Below are positions 1,100-50,963 of a stretch of 64,000 bases of DNA, one piece after another. Positions within the stretch are counted from its first letter, which is position 1; every line of letters begins with the position of its first letter. The notes beneath the pieces were generated by a model that worked only from the letters and a program-made list of their open reading frames with translations, made no database searches and was not told the DNA's origin. The stretch is from a bacterium (GTDB taxonomy: Bacteria; Bacillota; Bacilli; Lactobacillales; Streptococcaceae). The DNA lies in the NCBI GenBank assembly GCA_905221085.1, contig CAJNBT010000003.1:96976-160975 (forward strand), in the 5' to 3' direction. Made by a program: the position numbers and the translations under genes.

Positions 1100-1135
1100 T
1101 TATTTACTCCTCTTATAAAGTATAGGTTATTATTG

Positions 1136-1164
1136 ATTATACCATATATTTCAAGATATTTCAA
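1136..1164 (-). promoter_or_regulatory. Promoter of the oligopeptide-binding lipoprotein gene
   Basis: On the minus strand a TTGAAA -35 box (1159-1164) and a TATAAT -10 box (1136-1141) are separated by 17 bases. TGG directly before the -10 makes it an extended -10. It points at the lipoprotein gene starting at 1099. Confidence 0.7.
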
Positions 1165-1225
1165 GAAAAGTAAACGAATTTTCAGAATATTTAGGCTTAT
1201 TATCACAAAAAATCTGAAAAAGCTA

Positions 1226-1254
1226 TTGACTGAAAATCATTTTCAAGGTATAAT
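1226..1254 (+). promoter_or_regulatory. Promoter of tRNA-Cys with a palindrome in its spacer
   Basis: TTGACT (1226-1231) and TATAAT (1249-1254) are 17 bases apart, 13 bases before the tRNA. The spacer contains the 15-base 7-1-7 palindrome TGAAAATCATTTTCA (1231-1245), a plausible operator or coincidence. Confidence 0.75.
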
Positions 1255-1266
1255 AATAAACGTTAA

Positions 1267-1337
1267 GGCGGTATAGCCAAGTGGTAAGGCACGGCTCTGC
1301 AAAAGCTTGATCGTCGGTTCAAATCCGTCTACCGCCT
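1267..1337 (+). tRNA. tRNA-Cys (GCA)
   Basis: A 71-base cloverleaf can be drawn. The acceptor stem GGCGGTA pairs with TACCGCC, the anticodon loop reads CTGCAAA with anticodon GCA, and the T arm contains GGTTCAAATCC. The CCA end is not encoded. Confidence 0.95.
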
Positions 1338-1372
1338 TCTATAACTTGATTTATCAGGTTGCAAATGAACAG

Positions 1373-1398
1373 AAAGCCCCGTTTGAAGGGCTTTTTTT
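1373..1398 (+). terminator. Rho-independent terminator after tRNA-Cys
   Basis: AAAGCCC and GGGCTTT flank an eight-base loop, followed by a run of T. Confidence 0.8.
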
Positions 1399-1473
1399 GA
1401 TAAATACATATAATTTACAAACATTTTGGGGCTGAGCTTTTCGAGGGCACAATTCTCGTTTGAAATCAACTGA

Positions 1474-1504
1474 AAAAAGCTTCATCACACATGGTGACAA
1501 AAGC
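1474..1504 (-). terminator. Terminator of the CBS-domain protein gene
   Basis: On the minus strand an imperfect stem (GCTTTTGTCAC with GTGATGAAGC) is followed by TTTTTT, just past the stop codon of the gene ending at 1512. Confidence 0.6.
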
Positions 1505-1511
1505 CTCTAGT

Positions 1512-2843
1512 TTACTCTGTTTCTTCTTCTATTTCAAGTTCTGTGATCTGGACTTTTACCTTGGTAACACGTCCATTTTTCACCTTATCATTGGTTAGGA
1601 TAAGCTGTTTGTTTTGGCTGACCAATTCATAGCTAAGTTTCTCAGTCGTTGGAATACTCCCAATTCCTGTCAAATAATAACCAGCGATGGTATCAACGTC
1701 ATCACTTTCCAGCTCAACATCAAAGTAGCTATTAAAATCATTGAGATTCATAGTACCTTGAACAATATAAGTATCATCGCCAATCTGATGAACATCTATT
1801 GCTGCTTTGTCCGTTTCATCATCGATTTCCCCAACGATTTCCTCTAAGAGGTCTTCAAGGGTCACCAAACCAGCCATCCCACCGTATTCATCTAGCAGAA
1901 TTGCCATTTGTCTTTGGGTATTGCGCAATTCTTTTAGCAAGTCATCTACAAAAATGGTTTCAGGAACAAAGAGTGGATCTTGTAAAATTTTCTTCCAAAC
2001 AATATTGTCAAAACCGTCTACAAAGGCTGCCTTAAGAAGACTCTTGGTATGAATAATCCCAATCACGTTATCCTTGTCTCCATCATAGACAGGGATACGA
2101 GAATAATTTTGTTTTAAAATACTTTGGATAATGATTTGACTATCATCCTTAATATCAACCATGAAGGCATCCGTTCGAGGAACCATAACTTCTCTGGCCA
2201 TCAGTTCATCTAGTGAAAAAATCCCCTGTAACATCTCAATTTCGTCAGCATCTAGTGTTTCTTCACTATTTGTCAGCATGTAGGCAATTTCATCACGGGT
2301 CATTTTTTCATCAGCATCGTCAAAGGCCACAGGAGTCAAGCGACTCAAAAGATTAGTAGACGCAGACAAGAGCCAAACAAAGGGATTAACTAGTTTTCCC
2401 AGCCCAATAATAACTGGCGCTGTACGAATCGCCAAGGCATCTTTTAGATTAAGAGCGATTCTCTTAGGGTACAATTCCCCAAAAACAATGGAAATATAAG
2501 TCAAAAATGCTAAAGATAGAAAACTTGCAACGGCATAAGATGTTTCGCCATTTCCAAGCCAAGATGCAATTTCTCGTCCCAGAGTTTCTGCCAAACTCGC
2601 CCCTGATAAGATCGTAATCAGGGTAATCCCTACTTGAATGGTTGATAAAAAGTGGTTAGGATTTTCTAGTACCTTCAGCAGACGGATATAGCGTCTATCT
2701 CCTTCTTCTGCCTTTTGTTCAACCCGCGCACGGTTTAGTGACACCATGGCCATTTCTGTGGCTGAGAAAAAGGCATTCAACACCGTCAAGATAAACAATA
2801 AAACAAATTGTAGCAACAAATTCTGACTACTTGGGTCTTCCAT
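1512..2843 (-). CDS. Hemolysin-family membrane protein with CNNM (DUF21), CBS pair and CorC_HlyC domains
   Basis: This 443-residue protein has an N-terminal DUF21/CNNM domain with several hydrophobic helices (about residues 10-190). It is followed by a CBS pair (about 205-335, with REVMVPRTDAF and LLDEYGGMAGLVTLEDLLEEIVGEI) and a C-terminal CorC/HlyC transporter-associated domain (about 350-430). Family members are thought to move magnesium or other divalent cations, or to regulate such movement; the hemolysin name is historical. It is a single gene with its own terminator, upstream of a BOX element. The specific substrate is not visible in the sequence. Confidence 0.9.
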   Translation of the reverse strand: MEDPSSQNLLLQFVLLFILTVLNAFFSATEMAMVSLNRARVEQKAEEGDRRYIRLLKVLENPNHFLSTIQVGITLITILSGASLAETLGREIASWLGNGETSYAVASFLSLAFLTYISIVFGELYPKRIALNLKDALAIRTAPVIIGLGKLVNPFVWLLSASTNLLSRLTPVAFDDADEKMTRDEIAYMLTNSEETLDADEIEMLQGIFSLDELMAREVMVPRTDAFMVDIKDDSQIIIQSILKQNYSRIPVYDGDKDNVIGIIHTKSLLKAAFVDGFDNIVWKKILQDPLFVPETIFVDDLLKELRNTQRQMAILLDEYGGMAGLVTLEDLLEEIVGEIDDETDKAAIDVHQIGDDTYIVQGTMNLNDFNSYFDVELESDDVDTIAGYYLTGIGSIPTTEKLSYELVSQNKQLILTNDKVKNGRVTKVKVQITELEIEEETE

Positions 2844-2917
2844 AGTTCTTCTCCTAAAATAGTATCTTATCTTTTATTATATCACAAAATATAGTCCAGT
2901 ACATATTATTTTTTCTC

Positions 2918-3030
2918 ATACTCTTCGAAGGTCTCTTCAAACCACGTCAGCTTTATCTGCAACCTCAAAGCAGTGCTTTGAGCAACCTGCGGCTAGCTTC
3001 CTAGTTTGCTTTTTGATTTTCATTGAGTAT
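2918..3030 (+). repeat. BOX element, short form (boxA-boxC with part of boxB deleted)
   Basis: It begins ATACTCTTCGAAGGTCTC and ends CATTGAGTAT, the usual BOX termini, in A-to-C orientation. It is 113 bases instead of about 150. It lacks the end of boxA and the GACTTCGTCAGT part of boxB. The copies at 32097 and 37486 share this gap. Confidence 0.9.
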
Positions 3031-3039
3031 TAAATTGTC

Positions 3040-3079
3040 CAAAAAAGAACTCCTATATCCACAAGTGACATAGGAGTTT
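3040..3079 (-). terminator. Terminator of endA
   Basis: AACTCCTAT and ATAGGAGTT form a stem followed on the minus strand by CTTTTTT. Confidence 0.8.
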
Positions 3080-3089
3080 ATCTTATCTT

Positions 3090-4133
<1,044 letters not shown>

Positions 4134-4141
<8 letters not shown>

Positions 4142-5417
4142 CTTCATCACTTGCCTCAATCCGCTGAATCTTAGCACCTAGCTGCGTCAACTTCTCATGG
4201 AAACGGTAGTAACCTCTATCCAAGTGAACCAATTTACCAACTACAGTTTCTCCTTGTGCTACCAAACCTGTCAAAATCAAAGCAGCACTGGCACGAAGGT
4301 CGGTTGAAAGAACTTCTGCCCCCTGCAAAGGTTGACCACCAACAATACGAGCTGTATCACGGATAATCTCAGAGTGCAAGCCCATGCGACGCATTTCTTC
4401 CAAGTGTTGGAAACGATTTTCGAAAACTGTCTCCACCATGCTTGATTCCCCTTTTGCGACGGTCATCAAGGCTGTAAACTGAGCCTGCATATCTGTTGGA
4501 AATCCTGGGTGGGGCAGGGTTTTCACATGGACAGCTTTTAGATTTTCTAGTTGAGAACGAACACGAATTCCTTCGTCTTCTTCAATTACTTCAACACCCA
4601 TTTCAAGCAACTTGGCAATCAAGGGACGGTTGTGCTCCCAGACAGCGTCTCGAATCAAGACATCACCACCAGTCATGGCAGCAGCTACCATAAAGGTTCC
4701 TGCTTCGATACGGTCTTGGACTACATTGTGAGTCGTCCCATGAAGTTTCTCAACACCAGTAATGGTAATAGTCTCTGTACCAGCACCCTTAACCTTGGCT
4801 CCCATTTCATTAAGGAGAATGGCTAAGTCAACAATCTCAGGCTCACGCGCAGCATTTTCAATCACTGTCACACCATCAGCCAGAGTCGCTGCCATCATCA
4901 AGTTCTGCGTAGCGCCAACACTTGGGAAGTCCATGTAGATATGAGCCCCATGTAAGCGATCAGCCTTGGCTTCGATATAACCAGCTGTCTGACTAATCTT
5001 AGCCCCCATAGCTTCTAGACCTTTCAAATGAAGATCAATAGGACGGCTACCAATCGTACAACCACCTGGCATGGATACCTTAGCATGACCTACACGGGCA
5101 AGAATTGGTCCCAAGACAACGATAGATGCACGCATCTTGCTGACATACTTGTAAGGAGCTTCCTCAGTGATATCGCCAGTTGCGTCCACCTCAACAAGAT
5201 GAGCTTCTTCATTAAAATCCACCTTAGCATTCAAACCACGAACCACCTGATTCATAGTGAAAACATCTGACAAGATAGGAACATTCTGCAAGACGGTCTT
5301 TCCTTCACTTGCTAGAATAGTCGCTGCCAACAAGGGCAAGACTGCATTCTTTGCTCCTTCGATCGTAACACTTCCTACCAGACGATTATCGCCACCTTGA
5401 ACCACAATTTTTTCCAT
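4134..5417 (-). CDS. murA: UDP-N-acetylglucosamine 1-carboxyvinyltransferase MurA
   Basis: MurA adds enolpyruvate from PEP to UDP-GlcNAc, the first committed step of peptidoglycan synthesis in the cytoplasm, and is the fosfomycin target. The 427-residue protein shows the [10 protein letters not shown] substrate motif and the loop [10 protein letters not shown], with the catalytic cysteine at position 120, so nothing suggests a Cys-to-Asp resistant form. Streptococci carry two paralogues (MurA and MurZ). The epuA/endA neighbourhood matches the one called murA in pneumococcus. It is followed by overlapping epuA. Confidence 0.95.
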
Positions 5418-5440
5418 ACTGATTTCCTTTACATTTGATT

Positions 5441-5671
5441 TTATAATAATCCTCTAAGCACTTCTTGCCACAATTGATACAGGCTGATAAAGAATGAACT
5501 CATGATGTAGCCCATTACGATACTGAAAAGAGCTATCAATAAACGGACTTTTCTTGTGTTCTCAGCTGTCACTTTTAAAACCTTTTCCCATCTAACAAGA
5601 TCCTTTAAAAGGTAAAAACTCACATAAATAAATAGCATGTGACTGCTTAGAGTGAATAATAATTGAACCAT
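5441..5671 (-). CDS. DUF1146 family membrane protein
   Basis: This is a small protein of 76 residues from the ATG at 5671 ([14 protein letters not shown]). It has two hydrophobic helices and the charged middle segment [13 protein letters not shown] typical of the YwzB/DUF1146 family, whose function is unknown. A longer reading from a TTG at 5725 is possible but has no ribosome site. On the minus strand an extended -10 (TGGTATAAT) ends six bases before the ATG, so a transcript from it would be nearly leaderless. It lies between sepM and murA. Confidence 0.8.
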
Positions 5672-5728
5672 TTGACTATTATACCATCTTCTCTGTTTGT
5701 GCGCTAGTTTGGAAACTTCACTCAAAAA

Positions 5729-6766
5729 CTAGGGATTGTTTTTCAAGTAATCAATTGCATCTTGTAGGGTTTTAACTGGCACTATTTTCATAGCCGTCTT
5801 AATTGTCTTGGCTGCTTCCAAAGCTGTTTGATAGTTATTTTTCGCATCTGGATGCGCTTTTTGTTCTTCTTCGCTAACAGGATTATCAGGTGCAAAGAAA
5901 ACCGCAGCACCTTCTCTAGCTGAAGCTACAACTTTTTTATCAATACCTCCAATATCCCCCACATTACCATCACGGTCAATAGTTCCGGTACCGGCAACAA
6001 TACGGCCATTACGAAGTCCCGGGTCAGCTATTTGAGTATAGATAGCCAGACTAAACATGAGCCCAGCACTTGGTCCGCCGATACCAGCTGTTGAAAAGCG
6101 AATTGGGACATCACTGGTCACTTCCGTACGGTCAATCAAACCGATTCCAATCCCATTTTTGCCATTTTCCAAGGTGATAATCTTACCTTCTGCGGACTTA
6201 GTTTGCCCATCCTCTTCATAGGTAACCTTGACGGAGTTCCCTAATTTTTGAGAATTGACATAATCAATCAAGTCTTTAGAACTATCAAAGGTCTGATCAT
6301 TGACTGCTGTGACCGTATCAGAGATGTTGAGAATCCCTTTAAAGGTCGAATTATCTGTCACAGTCAAAACATAAACCCCAAGATATTTTAGTTCGATATC
6401 TTTACCAGCTGTTTTTAGCCCTTGATATTTGGCCATATTTTGCGATGTCTGCATGTAGAATTGATTAATCCGCATAAATTCAACATCGGAAGAGCCACCT
6501 GTAGTCTCTTGGGCACTACGAATATCTGTAAAAGGCGTCAACCACGCATAAATCATATGGGCTAAAGTAGCGTGCTGGACACCAACCGTAACGAATTGAT
6601 AGGCACCAGCTTCCTTATCTTCTGTGTCATTTACTTTAAGGACTTGGCGAATATCTTCCGAACCACCTGGAACCTCTATATAGTAGGGCAAGGGCACTAC
6701 AAATGCCAAGAAAGTCACAATTAAGGCTGCAATGACATATAAGGGCCATCTAATCTTTTTTTTCAT
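5729..6766 (-). CDS. sepM: SepM-family PDZ-Lon serine protease
   Basis: The 345-residue protein has one N-terminal membrane helix (about 8-27), an extracellular PDZ domain (about 125-200) and a C-terminal Lon-type protease domain. The Ser/Lys dyad is visible: GGPSAGL with Ser233 and GGIDKK with Lys278. In S. mutans SepM trims the competence-stimulating peptide; in other mitis-group species the substrate is unsettled. It overlaps coaD by 17 bases, so the two are probably co-translated. Confidence 0.92.
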
Positions 6767-7238
6767 TTCTTATTTCCTCCAAAATACTCTCAGGAACATA
6801 GCAGGCAACATCCTGACCAAACTTCAAAAGCTCTCTAACACCGGATGAACTGAGATAGAGATGTTCAGGTCGACTATGTAAATAAATGGTCTCTATATCA
6901 GGAGACAGCTGATGGTTGTAGTAATCAAAACTGGCTTCATATTGCAAATCCGCCGCATTTCTCAAGCCTCGCACTAGGCAAGTAGCCCCCAGTCTTTTCG
7001 CAACATCAACTACCAATTCATCATGAGAAGACACGACTTTAACATTTCCCAAATGTTTCACAGCCTTTTCTAACCCCCGTTTACGATTTTCAATAGGAAG
7101 AAATCCTTGTTTGTGGGGATTAAAAAAAATACCGACATAGAGCTTATCAAAGAGTCTGCTCGCCCGTTCAATGATATCCAGATGCCCATTTGTCATCGGA
7201 TCAAATGAGCCTGTGAATAAGCCAATCTTATCTGACAT
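6750..7238 (-). CDS. coaD: Phosphopantetheine adenylyltransferase CoaD
   Basis: CoaD catalyses the penultimate step of coenzyme A synthesis, 4'-phosphopantetheine plus ATP to dephospho-CoA. The 162-residue protein has the nucleotidyltransferase start [15 protein letters not shown], carrying the NGH active-site motif, and the [16 protein letters not shown]-terminal motif (ISSS/T type). It overlaps rsmD (11 bases) and sepM (17 bases), forming an rsmD-coaD-sepM operon as in many Firmicutes. Confidence 0.96.
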
Positions 7239-7767
7239 AGACTGTCACCTTACTAATTCCATAAATCTTTTCCTTCCAGATGCCCAGGCAGGCAATTTCT
7301 TCTGGAAGTTCTACCATTTTATCTGTCTCACAAACCACCATAACATCTTCAGAAAAAAGCTCTCTCTCAGCCATTTTTTCAATATCTGATACGATTTGTT
7401 CCTTGGCATAGGGAGGATCTAAGAAAATGAGGTCAAATTCCCCAGATAGCTGTTCCAAGGCCCTTTCTGCATCCATCTTGAGGAGTTGAAATTTTCCAAC
7501 TTCCTTGGTCATCTGGATATTTTCAGCCACGATGGTCTGAGCCTTACGGTCTCGCTCCACCAAAACAGCACTGGACATGCCACGTGAGACTGCCTCGATA
7601 GATAAACCACCACTACCTGCATAAAGGTCCAAGACTCGTCCCCCTTCAAAGTAGGGACCAATCATGTTAAAAATGGCTCCCCTAACCTTATCCGAAGTTG
7701 GTCTTGTCGTCTTGCCTTCTAGTGTCTTGAGGGGACGTCCCCCATAGATTCCTGATACGATTTTCAT
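7228..7767 (-). CDS. rsmD: 16S rRNA (guanine966-N2)-methyltransferase RsmD
   Basis: A 179-residue SAM-dependent methyltransferase. It shows [19 protein letters not shown] for SAM binding and LIFLDPPY, the catalytic (D/N)PPY motif of N2-guanine methyltransferases. The N-terminal [16 protein letters not shown] is diagnostic of RsmD. It is the first gene of the rsmD-coaD-sepM run. Confidence 0.95.
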
Positions 7768-7797
7768 ACCGTTTATTATACCAAATTATGGGCGAAA

Positions 7798-7826
7798 AGA
7801 GAAAGAAAACCGAACCTTGCGGTTCG
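7798..7826 (-). terminator. Terminator of asnA
   Basis: CGAACC and GGTTCG form a tight hairpin directly after asnA, followed by TTTTCTTT on the minus strand. Confidence 0.75.
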
Positions 7827-7831
7827 ATTCT

Positions 7832-8824
7832 CTACAAAATATTTTCGTAAGTATCGCGGACTTCTTGAGGCCAAACACTTGTTTGCACTTCTCCGATGTG
7901 TTTCTTGCGAAGTAGGAACATGGCCATACGAGATTGTCCAATTCCTCCACCGATTGTCAATGGGAATAGGCCATTCAACAAAGCCTTGTGCCATTCCAAT
8001 TCTAAGCGGTCTTCATCACCTGTAATAGCAACCTGACGGCGAAGCGTTTCTTCATCTACACGAATCCCCATAGAAGACAACTCAAAGGCTCCACCTAGAG
8101 ATTCATTCCAGACAAGAATATCACCATTTAGACCCTTGTAGCCATTTTCAGACTCACTTGTCCAGTCATCGTAGTCTGGTGCACGTCCATCGTGCGGTTT
8201 ACCGTCTGACAATTCCCCACCGATACCAATCAAGAAGACTGCTCCAAATTCTTTACAGATAGCATTTTCACGTTCTTTCGGTGTCAAGTCTGGGTAGCGT
8301 TCTACCAACTCTTCTGTATGGATGAAAGTGATTTGTTTTGGCAAGATGGACTCGATATCATAGCGGGCTTCAACAGCTAGCTCAGTAAGGCGAATGGCCT
8401 TGTAAATCTTCTCAACTGTTTCTTTTAGGTAAGCGATGTTGCGTTTACCATTTGGAATAACCTTCTCCCAATCCCACTGGTCAACATAAACAGAGTGGGT
8501 CGCATCCAACGAGTCTTCGTCTGGACGAAGAGCCTTCATGTGGACGAAAAGACCTTCACCTTCACCGAAACCAAAACGAGCCAAGGTATGGCGTTTCCAT
8601 TTAGCAAGTGAGTGCACCACTTCATAAGTAGCATCAGAGATTTGGAGAACCTTGACTGATACCGCATTCTCCACACCTGATAAGTTGTCCTGCATCCCGT
8701 CACCGACCCTACTCAAGATAGGACCTTGAACTTCGACAACTTCTAACTTATCTTTCAAATACTGGGTAAAAGTGTTTTTGACAAAGGAAATCTCTTCTTG
8801 TTGATGGATAAAACTTTTCTTCAT
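7832..8824 (-). CDS. asnA: Aspartate-ammonia ligase AsnA
   Basis: AsnA makes asparagine from aspartate, ammonia and ATP. The 330-residue length is normal for the family. The class-II-synthetase-like fold shows in [21 protein letters not shown] and in the C-terminal [17 protein letters not shown] motif. It is monocistronic with its own hairpin terminator, and an asparaginase that runs the opposite reaction is encoded at 28614. The start is supported by the conserved [14 protein letters not shown] beginning. Confidence 0.97.
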
Positions 8825-8893
8825 AAACTACTCCTCAAAAAATTAATTAAAAGCATTATACACCTATTTTCAAGAAAAGGAAAGAGCAAATAC

Positions 8894-8924
8894 GAAAAAA
8901 ATCAGTGCTCCTTCGAACACTGAT
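8894..8924 (-). terminator. Terminator of the Bax-inhibitor-like gene
   Basis: ATCAGTG and CACTGAT (8901-8907 and 8918-8924) are followed on the minus strand by TTTTTTT. Confidence 0.85.
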
Positions 8925-8936
8925 GTCTTGGACCTT

Positions 8937-9620
8937 CTAGTCATTGCGACCGAAGATACGTAGAATACTTAGGAAGAGATTGATAAAATCAAGATAGATA
9001 CTGAGAGCCATTGACACAACCCAACCTGTCGCTACACGACCTTGTGATTGTTCATAGGCACGGCGAATTTTTTGGTTATCTGAAGCAATCAGCCCAGAGA
9101 AGACCAAGACCATGGCTACGCTAATCATATAATCAAAGAAACCACTAGCCAAGAAAATATTGACTATCATAGCAATAATCAAACCGATGAGGGCTGCCAT
9201 CATCGCTCGACCAATCCCACTCAAGTCTTTCTTGGTGAACATACCAACTGCTGCCATGACAAAGAAGAGCAGGGCGCTTGATACAAAGGCAGATAAAACT
9301 GTACCTGGAGTATAGAAAGCCACCACAAAACTGAGGGTAAAGCCGTTTAATACTGAGTAAAGTAAAAATACTGGAAGAGCCGCTGGGCTATTCTTTGAAG
9401 CCATACTACTGGCAACAAAGACTAGGGCTAGCTCTGCAAAAGTAGCAATGGTCAACCAGAGACGCCCCTGCATCAAAAAGTAAACCAACTGAGACTGAAA
9501 GACCGTCAACATAAGGCCTGATACCAAAGCGGATAGTCCGATTCCCAGACCAACAAAGGCATAAACCTTAGCGTAAAATTGATTGAGACCTGCGCGGTCG
9601 TGAATAATAGTGTGATTCAT
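8937..9620 (-). CDS. Bax inhibitor-1 / YccA family membrane protein
   Basis: A 227-residue protein with about seven membrane helices and the UPF0005/BI-1 signature near the C-terminus (SIYLDFINLFLSILRIFGRND). Bacterial homologues act as a pH-dependent calcium leak (BsYetJ) or as a modulator of FtsH (YccA). Which applies here cannot be seen. It is a single gene with its own terminator. Confidence 0.9.
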   Translation of the reverse strand: MNHTIIHDRAGLNQFYAKVYAFVGLGIGLSALVSGLMLTVFQSQLVYFLMQGRLWLTIATFAELALVFVASSMASKNSPAALPVFLLYSVLNGFTLSFVVAFYTPGTVLSAFVSSALLFFVMAAVGMFTKKDLSGIGRAMMAALIGLIIAMIVNIFLASGFFDYMISVAMVLVFSGLIASDNQKIRRAYEQSQGRVATGWVVSMALSIYLDFINLFLSILRIFGRND

Positions 9621-9674
9621 CTTTTCTCCTTTTCTATGAATGGCTTTCCTTGATTATAACAAAGAAAGTTAAAA

Positions 9675-10415
9675 TTAGCTTAAATGGAAAATTAAAATAC
9701 CGGCTGCAACGGCAACATTCAAACTCTCCGCCTGCCCCTTCATGCTAATATGGACCAATTGATCTGCACTTTCAGCCATGAGGGGACTAATTCCTTGACC
9801 CTCATTTCCCATGACTAGTACAAAATTTTCTATAGGAGGCAGTTCTCTGTAATCAACAGAATCTTTAGATAGGGTTGTTGCCAGCACTGGGACAGCTGCC
9901 TCTTTGGTTTCCTTAAGAAGCGCTTGGCTCGACATCCGGTAAATAGGCAGATGAAAATGACTGCCTTGCATGGAACGTAGGGTCTTGAGACTGTAGATAT
10001 CTGCCGATTTATCTGAAACAATTACTCCAGTAAAACCTGCTGCATCCGCAGTCCGAATGATGGTTCCCACATTACCAGGATCTTGCACATCTTCCAAAAA
10101 TAAGAACTTGCCCTGACTAAAGTCAGCTTGCCCTACTTCTTCTTTTTGAACCACCGCAACAATTCCCTGTGGAGTCTGAGAATCCGCCAAATCTAGCAAA
10201 ATATCCTCTGAAACCCAGACAGTTTGCGGAAATAAGGCTAACTGTTCTCGATAATTTTCTAGGGCAAAGATTTTCTCTATCGTTACTCCAGCTTGAACAG
10301 CTTCTTCAAACAAGTGCCAGCCTTCAATCAAATAAGCAGACTTGCGGTATTTTTTTTGGTGTAATTTCTTGGCATTTTTTACCACAGAATTGGCTTTTGA
10401 GGTTATAATAGTCAT
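9675..10415 (-). CDS. TrmH/SpoU family RNA 2'-O-methyltransferase
   Basis: A SPOUT methyltransferase of about 246 residues from the ATG at 10415 (MTIITSKANSVVKNAKKLHQKKYR). It has an N-terminal substrate-binding domain and the three SpoU motifs: FLFLEDVQDPGNVGTIIRTADAAG, FVLVMGNEGQGIS and LNVAVAAGILIFHL. The target is probably rRNA or tRNA, but this family is not assignable to one site by sequence alone. The TTG-proximal extension to 10433 was rejected as it lies in the divergent promoter region shared with acyP. Confidence 0.9.
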   Translation of the reverse strand: MTIITSKANSVVKNAKKLHQKKYRKSAYLIEGWHLFEEAVQAGVTIEKIFALENYREQLALFPQTVWVSEDILLDLADSQTPQGIVAVVQKEEVGQADFSQGKFLFLEDVQDPGNVGTIIRTADAAGFTGVIVSDKSADIYSLKTLRSMQGSHFHLPIYRMSSQALLKETKEAAVPVLATTLSKDSVDYRELPPIENFVLVMGNEGQGISPLMAESADQLVHISMKGQAESLNVAVAAGILIFHLS

Positions 10416-10448
10416 AGAAATATTATAACACAATCAAAGGGGTTTGGT

Positions 10449-10727
10449 ATGCAAAAGATTAGAATGATTGCCCAAGGTAGGGTGCAGGGAGTCGGCTTTC
10501 GTTGGGGTGTTTATAGCCTGGCACTTGAAATTGGTGGCATCACAGGTCGGGTATGGAATAACGACGATGGCACAGTCGAAATCTTAGCCCAAGCAGACTC
10601 ATCTGCTATCATGGCAAAATTTATTCAAGAAATCCGCAAAGGACCCACACCTTTTTCAAAAGTCAGCTACTTAGATGTCAAACTGAGCAACTTTCCTCCC
10701 TACCCTGACTTTAAAATCGCAAATTAG
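10449..10727 (+). CDS. acyP: Acylphosphatase
   Basis: A 92-residue protein with the acylphosphatase signature GRVQGVGFRWGVYSLA (catalytic Arg and the phosphate loop) and GRVWNNDDGTVEI (catalytic Asn). It hydrolyses acyl phosphates such as acetyl phosphate or carbamoyl phosphate. It is divergent from the SpoU methyltransferase and followed by yidC with a 77-base gap. Confidence 0.95.
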   Translation: MQKIRMIAQGRVQGVGFRWGVYSLALEIGGITGRVWNNDDGTVEILAQADSSAIMAKFIQEIRKGPTPFSKVSYLDVKLSNFPPYPDFKIAN

Positions 10728-10804
10728 GTCTCTAGAACTATTGTATATTTTGTAAAAAAACAGTAGAATAGAAAGGTATAATTTTTAAAGAAGGAATAAA
10801 AACA

Positions 10805-11731
10805 GTGAAATCTATTAAACGTTTTGCACTCTCAGCTATGGGAGTGGCTATGTTGCTTGTCTTAACTGGCTGTGTCAATGTTGATAAAGCCACAGGCCAG
10901 CCAACAGGATTTATTTGGAATACTATCGGAGCTCCTATGGCTGAAGCTATCAAGTATTTCGCTACTGATAAAGGTCTAGGCTTCGGTGTCGCTATCATCA
11001 TCGTAACCATTATCGTTCGCTTGATTATCTTGCCACTTGGTATCTACCAATCATGGAAGGCAACGCTTCACTCTGAAAAGATGAACGCTCTCAAGCACGT
11101 CCTTGAGCCACATCAAACGCGTCTCAAAGAAGCAACGACTCAAGAAGAAAAACTCGAAGCTCAACAAGCTCTCTTTGCCGCTCAAAAAGAGCACGGCATC
11201 AGCATGTTTGGTGGTGTAGGATGTTTCCCTATCCTCCTTCAAATGCCATTCTTCTCAGCTATCTACTTTGCCGCCCAACATACTGAAGGGGTTGCTCAAG
11301 CAAGCTACCTAGGCATTCCTCTAGGTTCTCCAAGTATGATTTTGGTTGCCTGCGCTGGTATCCTTTACTATCTTCAATCGCTCCTTTCACTTCATGGAGT
11401 AGAAGATGAAATGCAAAGAGAACAAATCAAGAAAATGATTTACATGAGCCCACTCATGATCGTCGTCTTCTCCCTCTTCTCACCAGCTAGTGTCACACTT
11501 TACTGGGTTGTCGGTGGTTTCATGATGATCCTCCAACAGTTTATCGTCAACTATATCGTTCGTCCAAAACTTCGCAAAAAAGTCCGTGAAGAACTAGCCA
11601 AGAACCCACCAAAAGCACGTACTTTCTCTACACCAAGTGGACGAAAAGACGTTACCCCTGAACAACCAACTGCTATCACAAGCAAGAAAAAACACAAAAA
11701 TCGCAACGCTGGAAAACAACGTTCGAGATAA
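10805..11731 (+). CDS. yidC: Membrane protein insertase YidC (OxaA/SpoIIIJ type)
   Basis: The 308-residue lipoprotein has a signal peptide with lipobox (VLTGC) and a 60KD_IMP domain with about five membrane helices (residues 55-260). The hydrophilic-groove arginine region and conserved CFPILLQMPFF are present. A basic tail (KKKHKNRNAGKQRSR) binds ribosomes in the YidC2 type. It inserts membrane proteins with or without SecYEG. Streptococci have two YidC paralogues; the long basic tail is characteristic of the YidC2/OxaA2 form, though pneumococcal gene order calls this site oxaA1, so I leave the number off. Confidence 0.93.
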   Translation: MKSIKRFALSAMGVAMLLVLTGCVNVDKATGQPTGFIWNTIGAPMAEAIKYFATDKGLGFGVAIIIVTIIVRLIILPLGIYQSWKATLHSEKMNALKHVLEPHQTRLKEATTQEEKLEAQQALFAAQKEHGISMFGGVGCFPILLQMPFFSAIYFAAQHTEGVAQASYLGIPLGSPSMILVACAGILYYLQSLLSLHGVEDEMQREQIKKMIYMSPLMIVVFSLFSPASVTLYWVVGGFMMILQQFIVNYIVRPKLRKKVREELAKNPPKARTFSTPSGRKDVTPEQPTAITSKKKHKNRNAGKQRSR

Positions 11732-44417: not shown

Positions 44418-44648
44418 TTAACTTCCTCGTCTCCAGAAAATCGCTAAGACAATCATGGAACCTAGTACTGCCGGAATAATGGCAGTTCCTGCTATTATCG
44501 GTCCCCAAGTCCCAAAAAGCAAGTGGCCTATAAAGGCACCAATCCAGCCTAGAAACATTTTTCCAAAACATCCCATTCGCTCTCCACGATTGGTCAGAGT
44601 ACCTGCTAAAAATCCCACTAGGAGACCAACGAACATACTTCCTAACAT
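44418..44648 (-). CDS. GlsB/YeaQ/YmgE family stress-response membrane protein
   Basis: A 76-residue protein with two or three hydrophobic helices and glycine-rich turns (MLGSMFVGLLVGFLAGTLTNRGERMGCFGKMFLGWIGAFIG). This transglycosylase-associated family is often induced by stress; the function is unclear. It starts nine bases after pepS and is probably co-transcribed. Confidence 0.88.
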   Translation of the reverse strand: MLGSMFVGLLVGFLAGTLTNRGERMGCFGKMFLGWIGAFIGHLLFGTWGPIIAGTAIIPAVLGSMIVLAIFWRRGS

Positions 44649-45899: not shown

Positions 45900-45919
45900 G
45901 TTGTTTCTCTTTTCTATTT

Positions 45920-46066
45920 TTATTTTTCTTTCAAAGTAGAAAGTAGCCCTGCTAGTGCAATAGTACCTAACAAGAGTGCTGTTGATAGAAAGATTGTTTC
46001 ATCTGCCAGCTCTAGCTGATAGTCAAAAACTTTTTGAACTGGTTTGTCTTTTACAAAATCCTTCCC
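45920..46066 (-). pseudogene. Possible C-terminal remnant of a surface or membrane-anchored protein
   Basis: The minus strand has a 48-codon open stretch with no start codon, opening directly after a stop: GKDFVKDKPVQKVFDYQ, then LELADETIFLSTALLLG, TIALAGLLSTLKEK. A hydrophobic helix followed by a short basic tail looks like a sortase sorting signal that has lost its LPxTG motif. It lies immediately upstream of pepS. It may instead be chance; I rate it as a candidate ruin. Confidence 0.45.
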
Positions 46067-46096
46067 TTACTAGTATATCACATATATTGGTATTTT

Positions 46097-46122
46097 AAAA
46101 AACAAGCTTACTGAAGCTTGTT
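46097..46122 (-). terminator. Terminator of the DUF262 cassette
   Basis: AACAAGCTT and AAGCTTGTT flank a four-base loop directly after the last cassette gene, followed by TTTTTTAAAA on the minus strand. Confidence 0.82.
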
Positions 46123-46126
46123 TTAA

Positions 46127-47989
46127 TTAGCTATTACAAAAATTTTGTACATACCTTTCCACTTCTTTTTCCATAGATTGAATCTCACCAATATCCCATC
46201 TATTTTTTTTAGAAGTTATCTTTGCCATCATCTGTAATTTTAAACTCTGACGATGGAATATCCCTTCTCTTTCCCATTGTTCTAATTTAGCCTCTGGATA
46301 GGAGTTGCCAAATCTGGAGTTCTGACTATCGGTAATAATACAAAGGTTGCCAAAGGAATGTAAAAACTCATCAGGTAATTGGCTCTCTCCATCATGTCCA
46401 TTTGGATTCTGAGGATACCAATGCTCTATGGAGCGACGATAAGCAAATTTAAAATCTCCAAACTCAATATCGTAATCTTTCTTCAATTCTTCACGATTTT
46501 TCCATAAAACATAATCTACAAAGTTAAAAGCGTAAACAGGAATTGCACCATATTTTTTGATACTTTTATCTTCGATAAACAATCTTTCCTCAGCATATCT
46601 CACTGCCATTTTTTCCAGAAAATCCTTAAAGAGACTAGCAAATTCTGTTTGATTTAACTCTTCAATATGGTTAAACAAGAATTGCAAGATTTCATATAAC
46701 CAACGACTATCACGATTGGCAGTAAAGGTCACAGCAAACATGGATTGGAGGAGGATAATGTTTTTGTTTAAATTGTCAAAAGTATTGTTTTGATAATTAA
46801 TTCGAACATATTTACATCCTCTATTTTCATTTCGTTTATATGTCTCATACTGACCTCGTTTGATTTGCCATTCGGTTTCATTTTCTAATTGGACATTTTT
46901 TACGATAAACGTATCAAATATATGCTTCATAGTCAGAAGTAGTTGCCCAAATTGTTGGACCCATTCTCTATCTCGTCGTTCAATTTCAAAAATTTTCAAT
47001 AATTTTTTATCATCAAATGTAGTTTCATCATTTCCTTCCATGATGAAAAAAACTTGAAGTAAAAATGTTGGAAAATCAATTACAGTCGTATAATTTGAAA
47101 TATCTGCTCCATTATTTACTAAGCTACTACTTTCATATTTTGTCTGAGTAATTGCATCTAGTAAACTTCGTTGCTCAATTTTTTTTACTCTTATTTTCTC
47201 AAATACACTTTCCAATTTGAAGTTAGTAGATTCTTTACCAAAAATTTTCTCCCCCTCTTCATCAGTATTGTCTGGTCTACTTCGGATTTGAAAAGTTTTT
47301 ATTACCGGCTTATCAAACTCTGCACAGGCATCCCAAATTCTTGCAAACTTTTGCGCCATTTCTTGATCTGTACCGAACTTAGCCATCATTTTCGCCTTAA
47401 GAATCTCATGAGCCTCTAGTTGTTCTCCTCGAGAATTGAAACGTTCGAAATAAAGATTCAAATCTAAATCTTCAGGAAGTATACTCCGAAAAATGATGAC
47501 ATTATCAAAAAGATAATCAACAAAAGACTGAGGATCAAGACGGCGCTCCTCTAGCACTTTTTTCAATGCATCTTTAGCATGTCCGTAACCTCTAGTCAGC
47601 TCATTTTCATCGCCCTCTACAATTTTTTTCTTGGCAAATAAATCTTGAATATTCTTATTTGATTTCTTCCGAGCTGGGAAGGTAAGATTGACAGCTTTCA
47701 ATCTATCAAAACCAAACTCATGCTTCAAAGCTAAGGCAATCAAATTAAGGGCTGTTGTTCGTTGTTGCCCATCTATGATTTTGAAAATATCATTCTCTTT
47801 ATTAACGACTAATGTTCCAATATAATAATTGTCTCTATCTCTATTTTCTTGAAAAGCATCTGCTACGTCGTTCAATAACTGTTCAATTTCATTATAAGTC
47901 CAAGCAAAATTTCTCTGATAAAGAGGAATAGCATAGGTATCTTCATTTAACAAACGATTAACTGATAAGCTTATATGTGTTTCTACCAT
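46127..47989 (-). CDS. DUF262-DUF1524 protein (GmrSD-like nuclease/NTPase)
   Basis: A 620-residue protein. The DUF262 (ParB-like NTPase) domain is at about residues 8-240, with IPLYQRNFAW (21-30), IIDGQQRTTAL (71-81) and FNSRGEQLEAHEILKAKM. A long helical middle follows. The DUF1524 His-Me-finger nuclease domain is at about 515-590, with SIEHWYPQNPNG (His523) and FGNLCIITDSQNSRFGNSYPEAK. This architecture is that of GmrSD and SspE, which cut modified phage DNA. It overlaps its upstream partner by seven bases and has no methylase neighbour. DNA around it looks more AT-rich than pepS or polC. Confidence 0.85.
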   Translation of the reverse strand: MVETHISLSVNRLLNEDTYAIPLYQRNFAWTYNEIEQLLNDVADAFQENRDRDNYYIGTLVVNKENDIFKIIDGQQRTTALNLIALALKHEFGFDRLKAVNLTFPARKKSNKNIQDLFAKKKIVEGDENELTRGYGHAKDALKKVLEERRLDPQSFVDYLFDNVIIFRSILPEDLDLNLYFERFNSRGEQLEAHEILKAKMMAKFGTDQEMAQKFARIWDACAEFDKPVIKTFQIRSRPDNTDEEGEKIFGKESTNFKLESVFEKIRVKKIEQRSLLDAITQTKYESSSLVNNGADISNYTTVIDFPTFLLQVFFIMEGNDETTFDDKKLLKIFEIERRDREWVQQFGQLLLTMKHIFDTFIVKNVQLENETEWQIKRGQYETYKRNENRGCKYVRINYQNNTFDNLNKNIILLQSMFAVTFTANRDSRWLYEILQFLFNHIEELNQTEFASLFKDFLEKMAVRYAEERLFIEDKSIKKYGAIPVYAFNFVDYVLWKNREELKKDYDIEFGDFKFAYRRSIEHWYPQNPNGHDGESQLPDEFLHSFGNLCIITDSQNSRFGNSYPEAKLEQWEREGIFHRQSLKLQMMAKITSKKNRWDIGEIQSMEKEVERYVQNFCNS

Positions 47990-49305
47990 TTATCTTTTTC
48001 CTCTTCTATAATCTTGTCCACAGTATAATTTTCAAATAACTCTCTATCTATCTTGATCATAAAATCATTCGGAGTGACAGCATGGGATAAAAGTTGAAAT
48101 AGCTTTTGAACCTCTTTTTGTCTAAACCTTCCACCAGCAGCATAGTTCCCAACCGTCGCATCATATATGGCTTTAGATTTAACTCGAGGGTAGTAAGACC
48201 AAATAAACAAGGTCTCTACTATCTCCTTTGATAGCTCATCTTTTCCAAATCTATCTGCGAAAAGCGAGCAAATATTTAGGAATATATTGTGACATTTGAG
48301 ATAGCGTCCTTTTGAGCTATTGTAAATGTTCAACATACCTTTTGGGTAAGCGACATTTTTTTCTTCCCCTTCAGGTTCATCAGAAAATCCTAACTCTGCA
48401 TTTAAAAAATCTTTATGTTCTTTAATAGTTTCATGAGCAGATTCAATATACTCAAAAAATTTACTTCCATCAATGATTGGCATAGTAATGGACATGGGGA
48501 GATTTTCAATATGACGATACAATTCTAGATATGGAAAATTCTGATTCAAATCAACGCCTTTAAAATCGTCAATAAAATCCTCTGTAAAACGGAGATAAGA
48601 ACCATAACGCTTGTTTGTCAATCCTGTCTCTCCTCGCGACCAACGTCTCATACGAAAAAGATGTTTATCAAATAACTCTTTGAGACTTAAATCTTTATAC
48701 TCTACAAATTGCTCCCACTTTTCCACAATTCTTTCATCTTCGGAATCTTGCTTGCGAAGATGATAGGCTTTGAGCAAATCATGAGGTTCTAAAGATTTTC
48801 CACGATTATTCTGAGAATCAAATAGCTGAAAGGCCTCTGATAATCGTTCCTGTGGCATAGTAATCACGGAGACAGAACAGTTTTCCAATAAAAAGTTGCA
48901 AATATCTTTTGCCTCATTTTCGCCAACCAATTGAGTCAAATTTTCCCACTCATTATAATTTTCACTCGCATGATAGCAAGATAGCTCTCCAAATACAGCA
49001 CTACTCAGCAGTTGCTTAGCACCCTTATAATTCTCTAAATCATCTAATAAATGAAGAAACAAGGAAATAGAAATTAGCCGTTGCTGTCCATCGACAATAT
49101 CTAAGTATCTATCATTTCCATCATTTTCATGCAAGATAACGGAACCAAACTGATATTCCTTTTTCCCCATAGCATCTCGTAAATCATAAAAAAGATTACG
49201 AATATGTTTTCTGTTCCATTTATATGGTCTTTGATAAGAAGGAATTCGCAAATTCCCTTCTTTCAATAGTTCTCCAACCTTTTTAGAAGTAAATTGAATA
49301 GTCAT
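47983..49305 (-). CDS. DUF262-only partner protein
   Basis: A 440-residue protein with a complete DUF262 domain (IPSYQRPYKW at 21-30, DIVDGQQRLISI at 69-80, FDSQNNRGKSLEPHDLLKAY) but no DUF1524 motif. The C-terminal half is helical and unfamiliar. The IPxYQR motif lies at the same residue numbers as in the downstream protein, so the two look like diverged paralogues. It may be a regulatory or sensor subunit. It starts seven bases after the WYL gene and overlaps the nuclease gene. Confidence 0.82.
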   Translation of the reverse strand: MTIQFTSKKVGELLKEGNLRIPSYQRPYKWNRKHIRNLFYDLRDAMGKKEYQFGSVILHENDGNDRYLDIVDGQQRLISISLFLHLLDDLENYKGAKQLLSSAVFGELSCYHASENYNEWENLTQLVGENEAKDICNFLLENCSVSVITMPQERLSEAFQLFDSQNNRGKSLEPHDLLKAYHLRKQDSEDERIVEKWEQFVEYKDLSLKELFDKHLFRMRRWSRGETGLTNKRYGSYLRFTEDFIDDFKGVDLNQNFPYLELYRHIENLPMSITMPIIDGSKFFEYIESAHETIKEHKDFLNAELGFSDEPEGEEKNVAYPKGMLNIYNSSKGRYLKCHNIFLNICSLFADRFGKDELSKEIVETLFIWSYYPRVKSKAIYDATVGNYAAGGRFRQKEVQKLFQLLSHAVTPNDFMIKIDRELFENYTVDKIIEEEKDKW

Positions 49306-49312
49306 TTTATCC

Positions 49313-50263
49313 TCATCTATATTTATCTATCATTTCTTGAACTGTTTGCTTCATATCCTCTACTAAAATCCGAGGAGACAAAACAGTAACTGCTTCCCCT
49401 TGTCCCAGCAACCAGCGTTTAAGCCCTGGTGTATGCTGACTTTCAAACTGAAAATGAGTCCAGTCACCATTTTTCCCAACTATTTTTGCACTTGGGAATT
49501 GATCCATCACAAGCGTCGGATCGTACAAATACTCGATTTCAATACTGATTTTCTTCCCGATAAAAGCATCCACTCTCTCGTTACGAATGTCGCCATCTCT
49601 AAATTTATCTCGATAAGAAATAGAGGGTTTCTCTATACCACTAAAAGACCATGACTGGATACGGTCTACTCTTAAAGTAATATAAGTAGCATGTTTCAAC
49701 TGGTAAACAACCAGATAGAAATAATGACTATCATAGTAAAGAGAGACTGGCAAAACAGTCTGCCTCTTAGAAGATTCAGAATAAGGTTTTTGATAGATAA
49801 TGTCTAGAACCTGTTCATGTAAAATAGCTTCTGATAAATTCCAAATTTTCTCTATTCTATTTTGTTGATCCGTTAAGGGAGCATAGTTCAGCTTTTCGCT
49901 GCCAATGATCTGCTCAATTTCTTTCTGGTCAGCACGGGGAACTAAGACCAGTAAATTATTTAGTAAGCTAGCAATTTCTGGTCTGTTCAGTGCTCGATTT
50001 TCCAATAAAATCTTTGAAATAACGAGAATATCCTTTTTATTAAAAACTGACTTACTTGCTAAACAATACTTATTCGTCTTACGATTATAAAGCAAATCTC
50101 CACTATAACTGGTGTTACTAGATAAAATATCACGGAGTAGCGAAAAATCTCTCTGTATCGTCTTTTCGCTAACCTCAAATTCCTGAGCCAGTTGCTTTTT
50201 TCCTAGTGAAGTACCTAACTGTAATCGTAAAAAGATTGTTAGTAGTCTTTCTTGATCATTCAT
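49313..50263 (-). CDS. HTH-WYL transcriptional regulator of the DUF262 cassette
   Basis: A protein of 316 residues from ATG 50263 (MNDQERLLTIFLRLQLG). A winged helix (about 1-70, with LGKKQLAQEFEVSEKTIQRDFSLLRDIL) is followed by a WYL domain (about 140-220, with QTVLPVSLYYDSHYFYLVVYQ and ITLRVDRIQ) and a WCX dimerisation end. WYL regulators of the CapW/BrxR type control phage-defence operons and respond to nucleotides. TTG two codons earlier is a possible but weaker start. Confidence 0.87.
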   Translation of the reverse strand: MNDQERLLTIFLRLQLGTSLGKKQLAQEFEVSEKTIQRDFSLLRDILSSNTSYSGDLLYNRKTNKYCLASKSVFNKKDILVISKILLENRALNRPEIASLLNNLLVLVPRADQKEIEQIIGSEKLNYAPLTDQQNRIEKIWNLSEAILHEQVLDIIYQKPYSESSKRQTVLPVSLYYDSHYFYLVVYQLKHATYITLRVDRIQSWSFSGIEKPSISYRDKFRDGDIRNERVDAFIGKKISIEIEYLYDPTLVMDQFPSAKIVGKNGDWTHFQFESQHTPGLKRWLLGQGEAVTVLSPRILVEDMKQTVQEMIDKYR

Positions 50264-50280
50264 TTGCAATTTCCTTCTAC

Positions 50281-50372: not shown

Positions 50373-50894
50373 CTAGCCCTTAGGTGATTTCAACTGTACC
50401 ACTATGCCAGATTCGAAGAACTCAACTACGGATTCATCCATATTTTTTAAGTCTTCGGGTAAGCAGTCTGAATATACAATGAAGAGTCTGCCTCTTTTCT
50501 TATTCTCTTTGAATTGCTGCATCCAGTATTCCTGTACCCTTTGATCAGCCTCTCCCAAAAGTTGAACTCCCTCCAGAAAAATCAAGTCATACTCTGTATA
50601 CTCCATTTGCAGCTTTATCCATTGACTATGTTTAGAAAAAATCAAATTATCGCTCACTCGATAATATCCAAGTGATGCTATTGGAGTCGCAGGTTTTATT
50701 TTAGTTAACGTATAAAACAAATGCCATCTGTCAGTCTCTGAAATACCGCAAATGTAAATACATTGAGAATCTTCTTTTAAGTCTATTTGTGGGAATCCGA
50801 TCCAATCACTCCCATCATCTTTCAAGCCTTTTTCAAAATTGTAAATTTGCTCTTCAATTGACACGTTAGAATTTAAAATTCCTTGATCCGCCAT
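50373..50894 (-). CDS. DnaA-like degenerate AAA+ protein next to polC
   Basis: A 173-residue protein that I match by eye to the AAA+ core of DnaA. YICGISETDRWHLFYTL sits where DnaA has GGTGLGKTHLL (P-loop residues lost). YDLIFLEGVQLLGEADQRVQEYW corresponds to VDLLLIDDIQFLA (Walker B DD replaced by EG). LFIVYSDCLPEDL corresponds to the sensor-1 LTSDRPPKEL, and the end VVQLKSP to GLVVDIEPP. DnaA's N-terminal and DNA-binding domains are absent. It has an extended -10 promoter (TGTTATAAT) and sits downstream of polC on the same strand. A regulatory, Hda-like role is a guess. Confidence 0.6.
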   Translation of the reverse strand: MADQGILNSNVSIEEQIYNFEKGLKDDGSDWIGFPQIDLKEDSQCIYICGISETDRWHLFYTLTKIKPATPIASLGYYRVSDNLIFSKHSQWIKLQMEYTEYDLIFLEGVQLLGEADQRVQEYWMQQFKENKKRGRLFIVYSDCLPEDLKNMDESVVEFFESGIVVQLKSPKG

Positions 50895-50938
50895 ATTATA
50901 CTCTCTTTTCTATTATTTTTAAGAGAATTATAACAAAT

Positions 50939-50963
50939 CAAGTGGACATATTTTGTCCACTTG
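50939..50963. terminator. Palindrome between polC and the DnaA-like gene
   Basis: CAAGTGGACA, five bases, TGTCCACTTG form a perfect stem of ten pairs, 19 bases after the polC stop. The T-tract is poor, and the -10 box of the DnaA-like gene starts nine bases beyond it, so it could be an operator as well as a terminator. Confidence 0.6.

Follow-up and report, generated by a model that had tools for sequence, protein, structure and literature searches.

The 64-kb window of streptococcal DNA analysed here (the whole stretch of 64,000 nucleotides from contig CAJNBT010000003.1) carries, between polC and pepS, four minus-strand genes that probably make up a TgvAB-type operon for the two-protein restriction of modified DNA (type IV), repressed by a WYL-domain protein and gained as a unit. 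Its core is a pair of adjoining genes for a DUF262 protein (TgvA) and a DUF262–DUF1524 nuclease (TgvB), preceded by genes for the WYL regulator and for a short DnaA-type protein. The domains, motifs and linkage of these genes, the accessory status of the locus, the conservation of an operator-like palindrome and the mosaic structure of a cassette in the middle of TgvB were all observed directly, and from the sequences a defence function is likely.

The TgvA–TgvB pair

The four genes lie between the stop codon of polC (50982) and the start of pepS (45899). tgvA (47983..49305) encodes 440 residues, with an N-terminal DUF262 domain (PF03235, 1.4e-30) and a C-terminal helical DUF7834 domain (PF25202, 1.6e-39). 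It overlaps by 7 nt with tgvB (46127..47989), which encodes 620 residues comprising an N-terminal DUF262 domain (PF03235, 7.8e-28), a helical middle and a C-terminal DUF1524 domain (PF07510, 1.3e-11), both Pfam matches being above the curated cut-offs. These assignments are based on Pfam, alignment and, for the N-terminal domains, fold matches. The DUF262 motifs QR, DGQQR and FxxxN occur in both proteins, and neither set varies across the 25 TgvB and 21 TgvA sequences aligned. In the catalytic region of DUF1524 (46319..46426, residues 522–557, EHWYPQ ... FGN ... QN) the residues E522-H523-W524, G547-N548 and N557 are likewise invariant in the 25 TgvB sequences. The first-pass annotation of this DNA, made from the letters alone, had predicted a DUF262–DUF1524 nuclease with EHWYPQ and FGN motifs, and alignment and Pfam searches bear this out, the three families that it proposed to look for (PF03235, PF07510 and PF13280) all being found in the proteins concerned. 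It had also placed the motifs of the two DUF262 proteins at the same residue numbers; they are conserved, but DGQQR falls at residues 73–77 in one and 72–76 in the other.

At the level of sequence, then, both features of the GmrSD family, DUF262 and the DUF1524 His-Me finger, are present. HEC-06 was the best PADLOC model for both DUF262 proteins, and no NCBIfam model scored above its cut-off for any of the four proteins. In predicted models the N-terminal domains of TgvA and TgvB match the folds of SspE, DndI and BrxU, the nearest being SspE (PDB 7drr/7drs/6jiv) and DndI (9jfl).

Full-length TgvA was found at 37 places in 36 of 197 Streptococcus genomes (one copy, in G006, has an in-frame TAG; G and L numbers are our handles for genomes and loci), and tgvB follows at all 37. 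Stretches of TgvB without TgvA, met in G161 and G150, are truncated remnants. Such constant linkage would fit a joint requirement of the two proteins for phage restriction. Outside Streptococcus DUF7834 is rarer, with matches in 16 of 295 genomes of the order (15 above the cut-off) and in 6 of 74 genera; TgvB follows in the five labelled loci of other genera that exceed the cut-off (L182–L186), and no WYL gene is labelled among the genes listed beside TgvAB in these five. The hidden Markov models used to label relatives were built from the same streptococcal sequences. As a separate observation, G189 (L210, 2455–6071) has two neighbouring long genes (511 and 695 codons) upstream of an AAA+–WYL pair, with DUF262-like QR motifs recognised by eye, and these are possibly a further two-protein DUF262 system.

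Relation to known two-protein systems

The first-pass annotation was right that this is a two-protein GmrSD-family system, accessory and WYL-associated (Pfam domains, linkage at 37 of 37 places, carriage by 10 of 73 genomes), and went astray in calling it undescribed, an idea that we reject. TgvAB of the Vibrio cholerae island VPI-2, published in 2024 as a type IV system of the GmrSD family, has the exact pair and requires both genes; as described there, it restricts T-even-type phages, and mutation of DGQQR or of the His/Asn residues abolishes activity (PMC11411939). Gene order is the same, a DUF262-only gene followed by a DUF262–DUF1524 gene, as are the QR, DGQQR and FxxxN motifs in both proteins and the His...Asn nuclease motif. 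A second two-protein case, GrwAB of West African–South American V. cholerae, also has one partner fused to DUF1524, but GrwB is described as having multiple unknown domains in an extended C-terminus (PMC12409362), whereas TgvA in the window has only DUF262 and DUF7834 in its 440 residues. BrxU, Eco94GmrSD and HEC-06 have the DUF262–helical linker–DUF1524 layout of TgvB and are described, in the part of the source drawn on here, as acting alone (PMC11411939), unlike the streptococcal nuclease with its linked DUF262 partner.

Two differences from V. cholerae TgvAB concern context. The window pair stands outside a type I restriction–modification (RM) operon, there being no hsd gene between polC and pepS; many tgvAB homologues are, however, reported outside the five-gene type I RM cluster (PMC11411939), so that such embedding is context and not a defining feature. 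Further, WYL and DnaA-type genes precede the window pair behind a common operator-like palindrome. The two-protein core is thus, as judged from sequence, of a known kind and the window locus a variant of the TgvAB architecture. We found no paper on TgvAB in Streptococcus among those under open licence, and in the related literature, which was examined in part, we met no description of the operator sequence, the DnaA-type companion or the linker cassette; we do not claim that they are absent from print.

The WYL regulator and a candidate operator

The WYL gene (49313..50263) ends 7 nt before tgvA. Its start is taken at the ATG of MNDQERLL (50263), the listing of open reading frames (ORFs) giving a TTG at 50269. 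The protein has a helix-turn-helix (HTH)–WYL–WCX layout like that of BrxR (PF13280, 2.6e-12; WCX, 1e-7; HTH_11, 2.1e-4, below the Pfam cut-off), an assignment based on Pfam and on its association with an operator. A repeat scan identified this candidate operator, which is R-BOX-like, at 50939..50963 (minus strand) as a perfect 10-bp inverted repeat with a 5-bp spacer, CAAGTGGACA-AAATA-TGTCCACTTG. Immediately after it an extended −10 element, TGTTATAAT (50927..50935, minus strand, read from the sequence), is the probable promoter of the four-gene operon. The first-pass annotation had the WYL regulator heading the operon; the regulator is there, but with a likely promoter before the DnaA-type gene it is the latter that comes first. 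Both the operator-like palindrome and the swapped TgvB cassette described below had escaped that annotation.

The pattern TGGACA-N5-TGTCCA occurs exactly once in the window, with 0.01 sites expected, and at 60 sites in the 197 genomes, in which a reversed control pattern gave 14. Of these 60 exact sites, 27 are no more than 4 kb away from one of 43 WYL-family places, where uniform placement would give 0.06, and 24 of the 43 places have such a site within that distance. The 10-base core GGACA-N5-TGTCC is present exactly within 3.5 kb in 29 of 44 WYL loci (the 43 places plus the window), and in nine further loci a core with one mismatch stands before an AAA+ gene. The operator takes fixed offsets, before the mini-DnaA gene discussed below, before a gene for an AAA+ protein of 620–648 residues, before a DnaB-type gene (L066) or 12–44 bp past the WYL gene, ahead of whichever gene comes next, in many cases tgvA. 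Many of the loci have a second operator-like box, and in L031, L035, L040 and L050 the box is followed by TTTTGTTATA(A/C)T or TTTGTTATAAT. At the level of genomes, the exact site also occurs in 25 that are WYL-negative, and 16 of the 41 WYL-positive genomes have none.

BrxR, a WYL repressor of defence islands, is reported to recognise an 11-bp repeat whose arms are 5 bp apart, with a further box before the effector, and a BrxR-related protein to recognise 10-bp repeats of the same spacing (PMC9122601). The window family shares with the BrxR family the HTH–WYL–WCX layout, the inverted repeat with a 5-bp spacer and, in several loci, the second box; its operator sequence, TGGACA-N5-TGTCCA, differs from the BrxR case. 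This geometry makes a BrxR-like repressor the best reading of the WYL protein, which by analogy is probably the repressor of the four-gene operon, acting at the candidate operator.

The survey of the trio's co-occurrence that the first-pass annotation proposed shows constant company for the pair and partial company for the regulator: 24 of the 37 TgvAB places have a same-family WYL gene upstream in the same orientation (at one more, L059, it is on the opposite strand). No box was found before tgvA in the 12 WYL-less TgvAB loci of the set L031–L067 (one, L056, stops at a contig edge), the matches in L041 and L042 lying inside polC. In passing, one same-family WYL locus (L195, 7644–9140) carries Nmad2 and Nmad3 nucleotide-modification-associated proteins as cargo, assigned by running the families, and cargo of Nmad2/Nmad3 type was recognised by similar starts in L200 and L207.

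The DnaA-type first gene

The island had been described as three genes between pepS and polC. The three ORFs and their low GC content (about 0.33 against about 0.45 in the flanks) stand, and to them has to be added a fourth gene, the first of the operon (50373..50894, minus strand, 173 residues). In the window this gene encodes a DnaA ATPase core in degenerate form (PF00308, 1.2e-5), without the GKT of Walker A and without domain IV. In sister loci the corresponding position holds an intact core, complete with Walker A and B, which matches the DnaA ATPase core across its full length (in L034, PF00308 at 4.5e-42; against the PDB, DnaA at 1.3e-29). Set beside the AAA+ domain of DnaA and Hda, these intact copies resemble the DnaA ATPase core but have only about 170 residues and lack both the lid and domain IV; we refer to the gene as mini-DnaA.

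That mini-DnaA serves as a sensor or co-regulator is a guess, and its main rival, to which we give somewhat less than an even chance, is that the gene is an unrelated passenger or a degraded fragment and no part of the system. In addition to its missing Walker A, the window type is less constrained, the ratio of non-synonymous to synonymous substitution (dN/dS) being 0.56 for the degenerate copies (n = 8) and 0.33 for the intact ones (n = 7), against 0.13 for WYL and 0.14 for TgvA (n = 11); the degenerate copy seems to be under weaker selection than the intact type, WYL or TgvA, although the copies were found as open frames, so that their absence of stops is no test. TgvAB of V. cholerae works without a DnaA-type gene, many streptococcal TgvAB loci also lack one, and three mini-DnaA genes stand beside WYL without TgvAB (G122, G159 and, broken, G042). 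Against a passenger role, the gene has an open frame in all 14 named mitis-type loci (L115–L128; seven degenerate, seven intact), and the window type is missing from all 40 polC–pepS sites that are empty or hold other cargo; in each of these 40 TgvAB-less genomes the intact-type model gave a single match, taken as DnaA itself. Moreover, the gene is the first behind the operator, and 16 of at least 18 placed copies directly adjoin this WYL family (G021 lies at a contig edge and G161 is a remnant). These placements are a lower bound from 11 genomes followed, mostly chosen for a second match, and the G021 copy (L056) was recognised by eye and not by the model.

Judged by such placement, it is with this WYL family, and not with TgvAB, that mini-DnaA is associated. 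L066 and L067, in which TgvA is much diverged, have it between WYL and tgvA, and at other WYL loci an AAA+ protein of 620–648 residues takes its place (Pfam was run on the L043 copy; the remaining ones were identified from their size, position and similar starts). The intact type is matched by 1153 proteins of 94–299 residues, of which the best 120 were viewed. A separate WYL locus (L194, 5524–11646) encodes a set of truncated proteins of replication type in neighbouring genes: a stand-alone DnaB C-terminal domain (PF03796, 2.3e-87), mini-DnaA and an RNase_T exonuclease.

An exchangeable cassette in TgvB

Identity profiles delimit a swappable cassette in TgvB at about residues 222–407 (46769..47326, minus strand; the window carries the class A allele). 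In windows of 15 residues the window TgvB is 80–100% identical to its class B relatives up to residue ~217; between ~225 and ~394 most windows have less than 50% identity, and from ~408 onwards it is back at 93–100%. Grouping at 60% identity divided 27 distinct close sequences into class A (12), class B (14) and an outlier (L050), the two classes being 34–41% identical (about 37%, 21 sequences). The loci L115–L145 largely repeat the genomes of L031–L067, with 21 TgvB sequences common to both, and the two sets were not summed.

The classes cut across species. Pairs whose TgvA and cassette flanks are 92–94% identical can differ in class: between L041 and L046, TgvA and the N part of TgvB each show 94% identity and the C part of TgvB 93%, but the cassette 37%; conversely, L037 and L041 have cassettes that are 96% identical and TgvA proteins at 84%. 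In nucleotides L045 and L046 match at 89–99%, drop to 43–57% over about 600 nt and return to 83–99%. Pairwise identities of the N and C parts of TgvB correlate with r = 0.61, those of the cassette with either at 0.26 and 0.31. Relaxed constraint alone would not yield near-identical cassettes in divergent backgrounds, and from these comparisons the cassette is, by the sequence evidence, exchanged by recombination between strains and species.

The possibility that TgvA follows the cassette class of TgvB was rejected, mean TgvA identity being 87% for pairs of the same class and 84% for pairs of different class (351 pairs, 27 sequences). This independence suggests that the cassette acts in target or inhibitor recognition rather than in contact with TgvA. 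Whether it is the DNA target that changes is the point on which an alternative differs: the cassette may be exchanged to escape phage inhibitors (IPI*-like anti-restriction proteins), with the DNA target unchanged. IPI* is reported to block some GmrSD homologues and not others (PMC12409352), and the swapped segment is a helical linker outside both the NTPase and the nuclease domains. Two main classes only ~37% identical, however, fit replaceable modules at least as well as gradual escape. We also know of no inhibitor of a streptococcal GmrSD enzyme, though no search aimed at one was made, which counts against this alternative, and we regard it as rather unlikely.

Accessory status and the polC–pepS gap

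A TgvA orthologue is present in 10 of 73 genomes with a pepS at least 95% identical, and we therefore rejected the idea of a core housekeeping trio. Without an insert the polC–pepS gap is about 195 bp. Among 40 TgvAB-less relatives (40 of 63 candidates from the top of the pepS list, G078 and G104 being passed over) the gap was below 250 bp, that is empty, in 24 and held other cargo in 16, one of which (L095) is mostly masked sequence. Cargo at the filled gaps among these 40 sites (L072–L111) includes an ABC-3C three-gene set, a NACHT protein, a RelB–YafQ pair and genes without a Pfam match. Because 16 of the 40 sites hold other inserts, the gap is an insertion hotspot, often with defence-type cargo. 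The comparison of pepS–polC regions proposed in the first-pass annotation places the insert edges, against natural empty sites, near 46060 and 50975, and in the explanation of the whole operon that we favour the TgvAB locus was probably gained here as a unit. No close relatives were found on viral contigs by a single-sequence scan, which reaches close relatives only.

Within the insert a probable intrinsic terminator of the operon, read by eye and not among the elements reported by the repeat scan, follows tgvB at 46094..46123 (minus strand) as AAACAAGCTT-CAGT-AAGCTTGTTT and then TTTAAAAT. Between polC and pepS, empty sites (e.g. L075) have, by eye, a short conserved ORF of some 50 codons, whose start the insert seems to take away (45900–46064 in the window). 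Immediately upstream of polC, on its far side from pepS, L207 of a distant species (G151, 102–11100) has a WYL gene of 45% identity among Nmad-type neighbours, and WYL cassettes may use the polC neighbourhood more widely. In G161 (L191, L192) remnants of TgvB and mini-DnaA, with the exact operator site retained, have transposase-like fragments nearby (by eye), and this island was apparently broken by insertion sequences. Downstream of pepS the window encodes a 76-residue Transgly_assoc-like membrane protein (44418–44648; 25.1 bits, cut-off 25.3).

Discussion

The working of the operon that we infer from these data is as follows. A WYL dimer on the TGGACA-N5-TGTCCA palindrome over the promoter would hold the four genes low until a nucleic-acid signal from infection or DNA damage released it. 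TgvA and TgvB would then cooperate through their DUF262 nucleoside triphosphatase (NTPase) domains, activated by NTP, to sense non-host modification on incoming phage DNA, and sensing would license the DUF1524 His-Me nuclease of TgvB to cut that DNA. The central helical cassette may determine the modified DNA that the system accepts, or the phage inhibitor that it resists, and would for that reason be exchanged between strains.

Two further schemes would have the nuclease do something else. The system may be a signal-activated abortive one in which the extra DUF262 protein reads an infection signal and the nuclease is turned on host DNA, in line with the NTPase-type fold of DUF262 and with an operon that appears regulated and has a stand-alone DnaA-type core in front. 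No nucleotide-signal synthase domain was found by Pfam in the four genes, though, and V. cholerae cultures with TgvAB kept growing at a multiplicity of infection of up to 5 (with one phage), which points to direct action (PMC11411939); we think an abortive mechanism quite improbable. A phosphorothioate-sensing enzyme like SspE or DndI, which work with phosphorothioation operons and give the nearest folds, is the least credible alternative, hardly to be expected since dndC (TIGR03183) gave no match in the 36 TgvAB-carrying genomes, in which other phosphorothioation genes were not searched. The first-pass statement that no methylase or phosphorothioation gene is adjacent agrees with this, and with the absence of a modification gene by Pfam among the four genes of the insert.

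Several observations weigh against the reading of the locus as a WYL-repressed TgvAB operon with an exchangeable specificity cassette. The likeness to V. cholerae TgvAB lies in architecture and motifs and not in a sequence comparison with VC1767/VC1766. On the side of regulation, 13 of the 37 TgvAB loci have no upstream same-strand WYL gene, so that the pair can do without WYL control; 33 of the 60 exact operator sites are not near a WYL gene; and 6 of the 44 WYL loci have no convincing box (in L059, L201, L203, L208 and L211 it is absent or a one-mismatch box at an odd offset, and in L207 it is doubtful). The WYL protein had no PDB sequence match at E 0.01 (phmmer), and its kinship with BrxR thus rests on domain layout and operator geometry. 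As for the cassette, two patches inside it, near residues 297–305 and 343–351, retain 47–80% identity between the classes, so that its alleles are diverged homologues and not unrelated domains, and the DUF1524 part itself has two variants in the 25-sequence alignment. All four partitions of the operon reject one another's trees in approximately unbiased (AU) tests. Incongruence alone therefore proves nothing special for the cassette; recombination is general across the operon, and only the size of the divergence jump sets the cassette apart. Finally, the AlphaFold models of TgvB and TgvA are poor outside the N-terminal domains (mean predicted local distance difference test score 55 and 64), and since they are good in the N-terminal domain only, the cassette cannot be placed in three dimensions.

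Taken together, the cassette and the regulator invite a wider proposal, which we offer tentatively, as the balance is against its holding in every part. In it the helical linker of TgvB is an exchangeable specificity module, swapped across species like the target-recognition domains of type I enzymes, and a modular streptococcal defence locus is controlled, through a defined operator, by a WYL repressor of BrxR-like type; the first gene of that locus, AAA+ or stand-alone DnaA, would be an infection sensor and the cargo (TgvAB, Nmad2/Nmad3 and others) would be interchangeable. The mechanism of modified-DNA recognition by GmrSD-type enzymes is described as unknown (PMC12409362). In the streptococcal operons natural alleles with near-identical partners vary chiefly within a single bounded segment, which makes the recognition question directly testable, and the linker as a specificity module, if true, would locate recognition within the GmrSD family. 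The palindrome gives a handle on when such systems switch on and predicts co-regulated cargo in other streptococci, and the stand-alone DnaA core beside the WYL regulator connects replication proteins with the control of defence in a manner so far unexplained.

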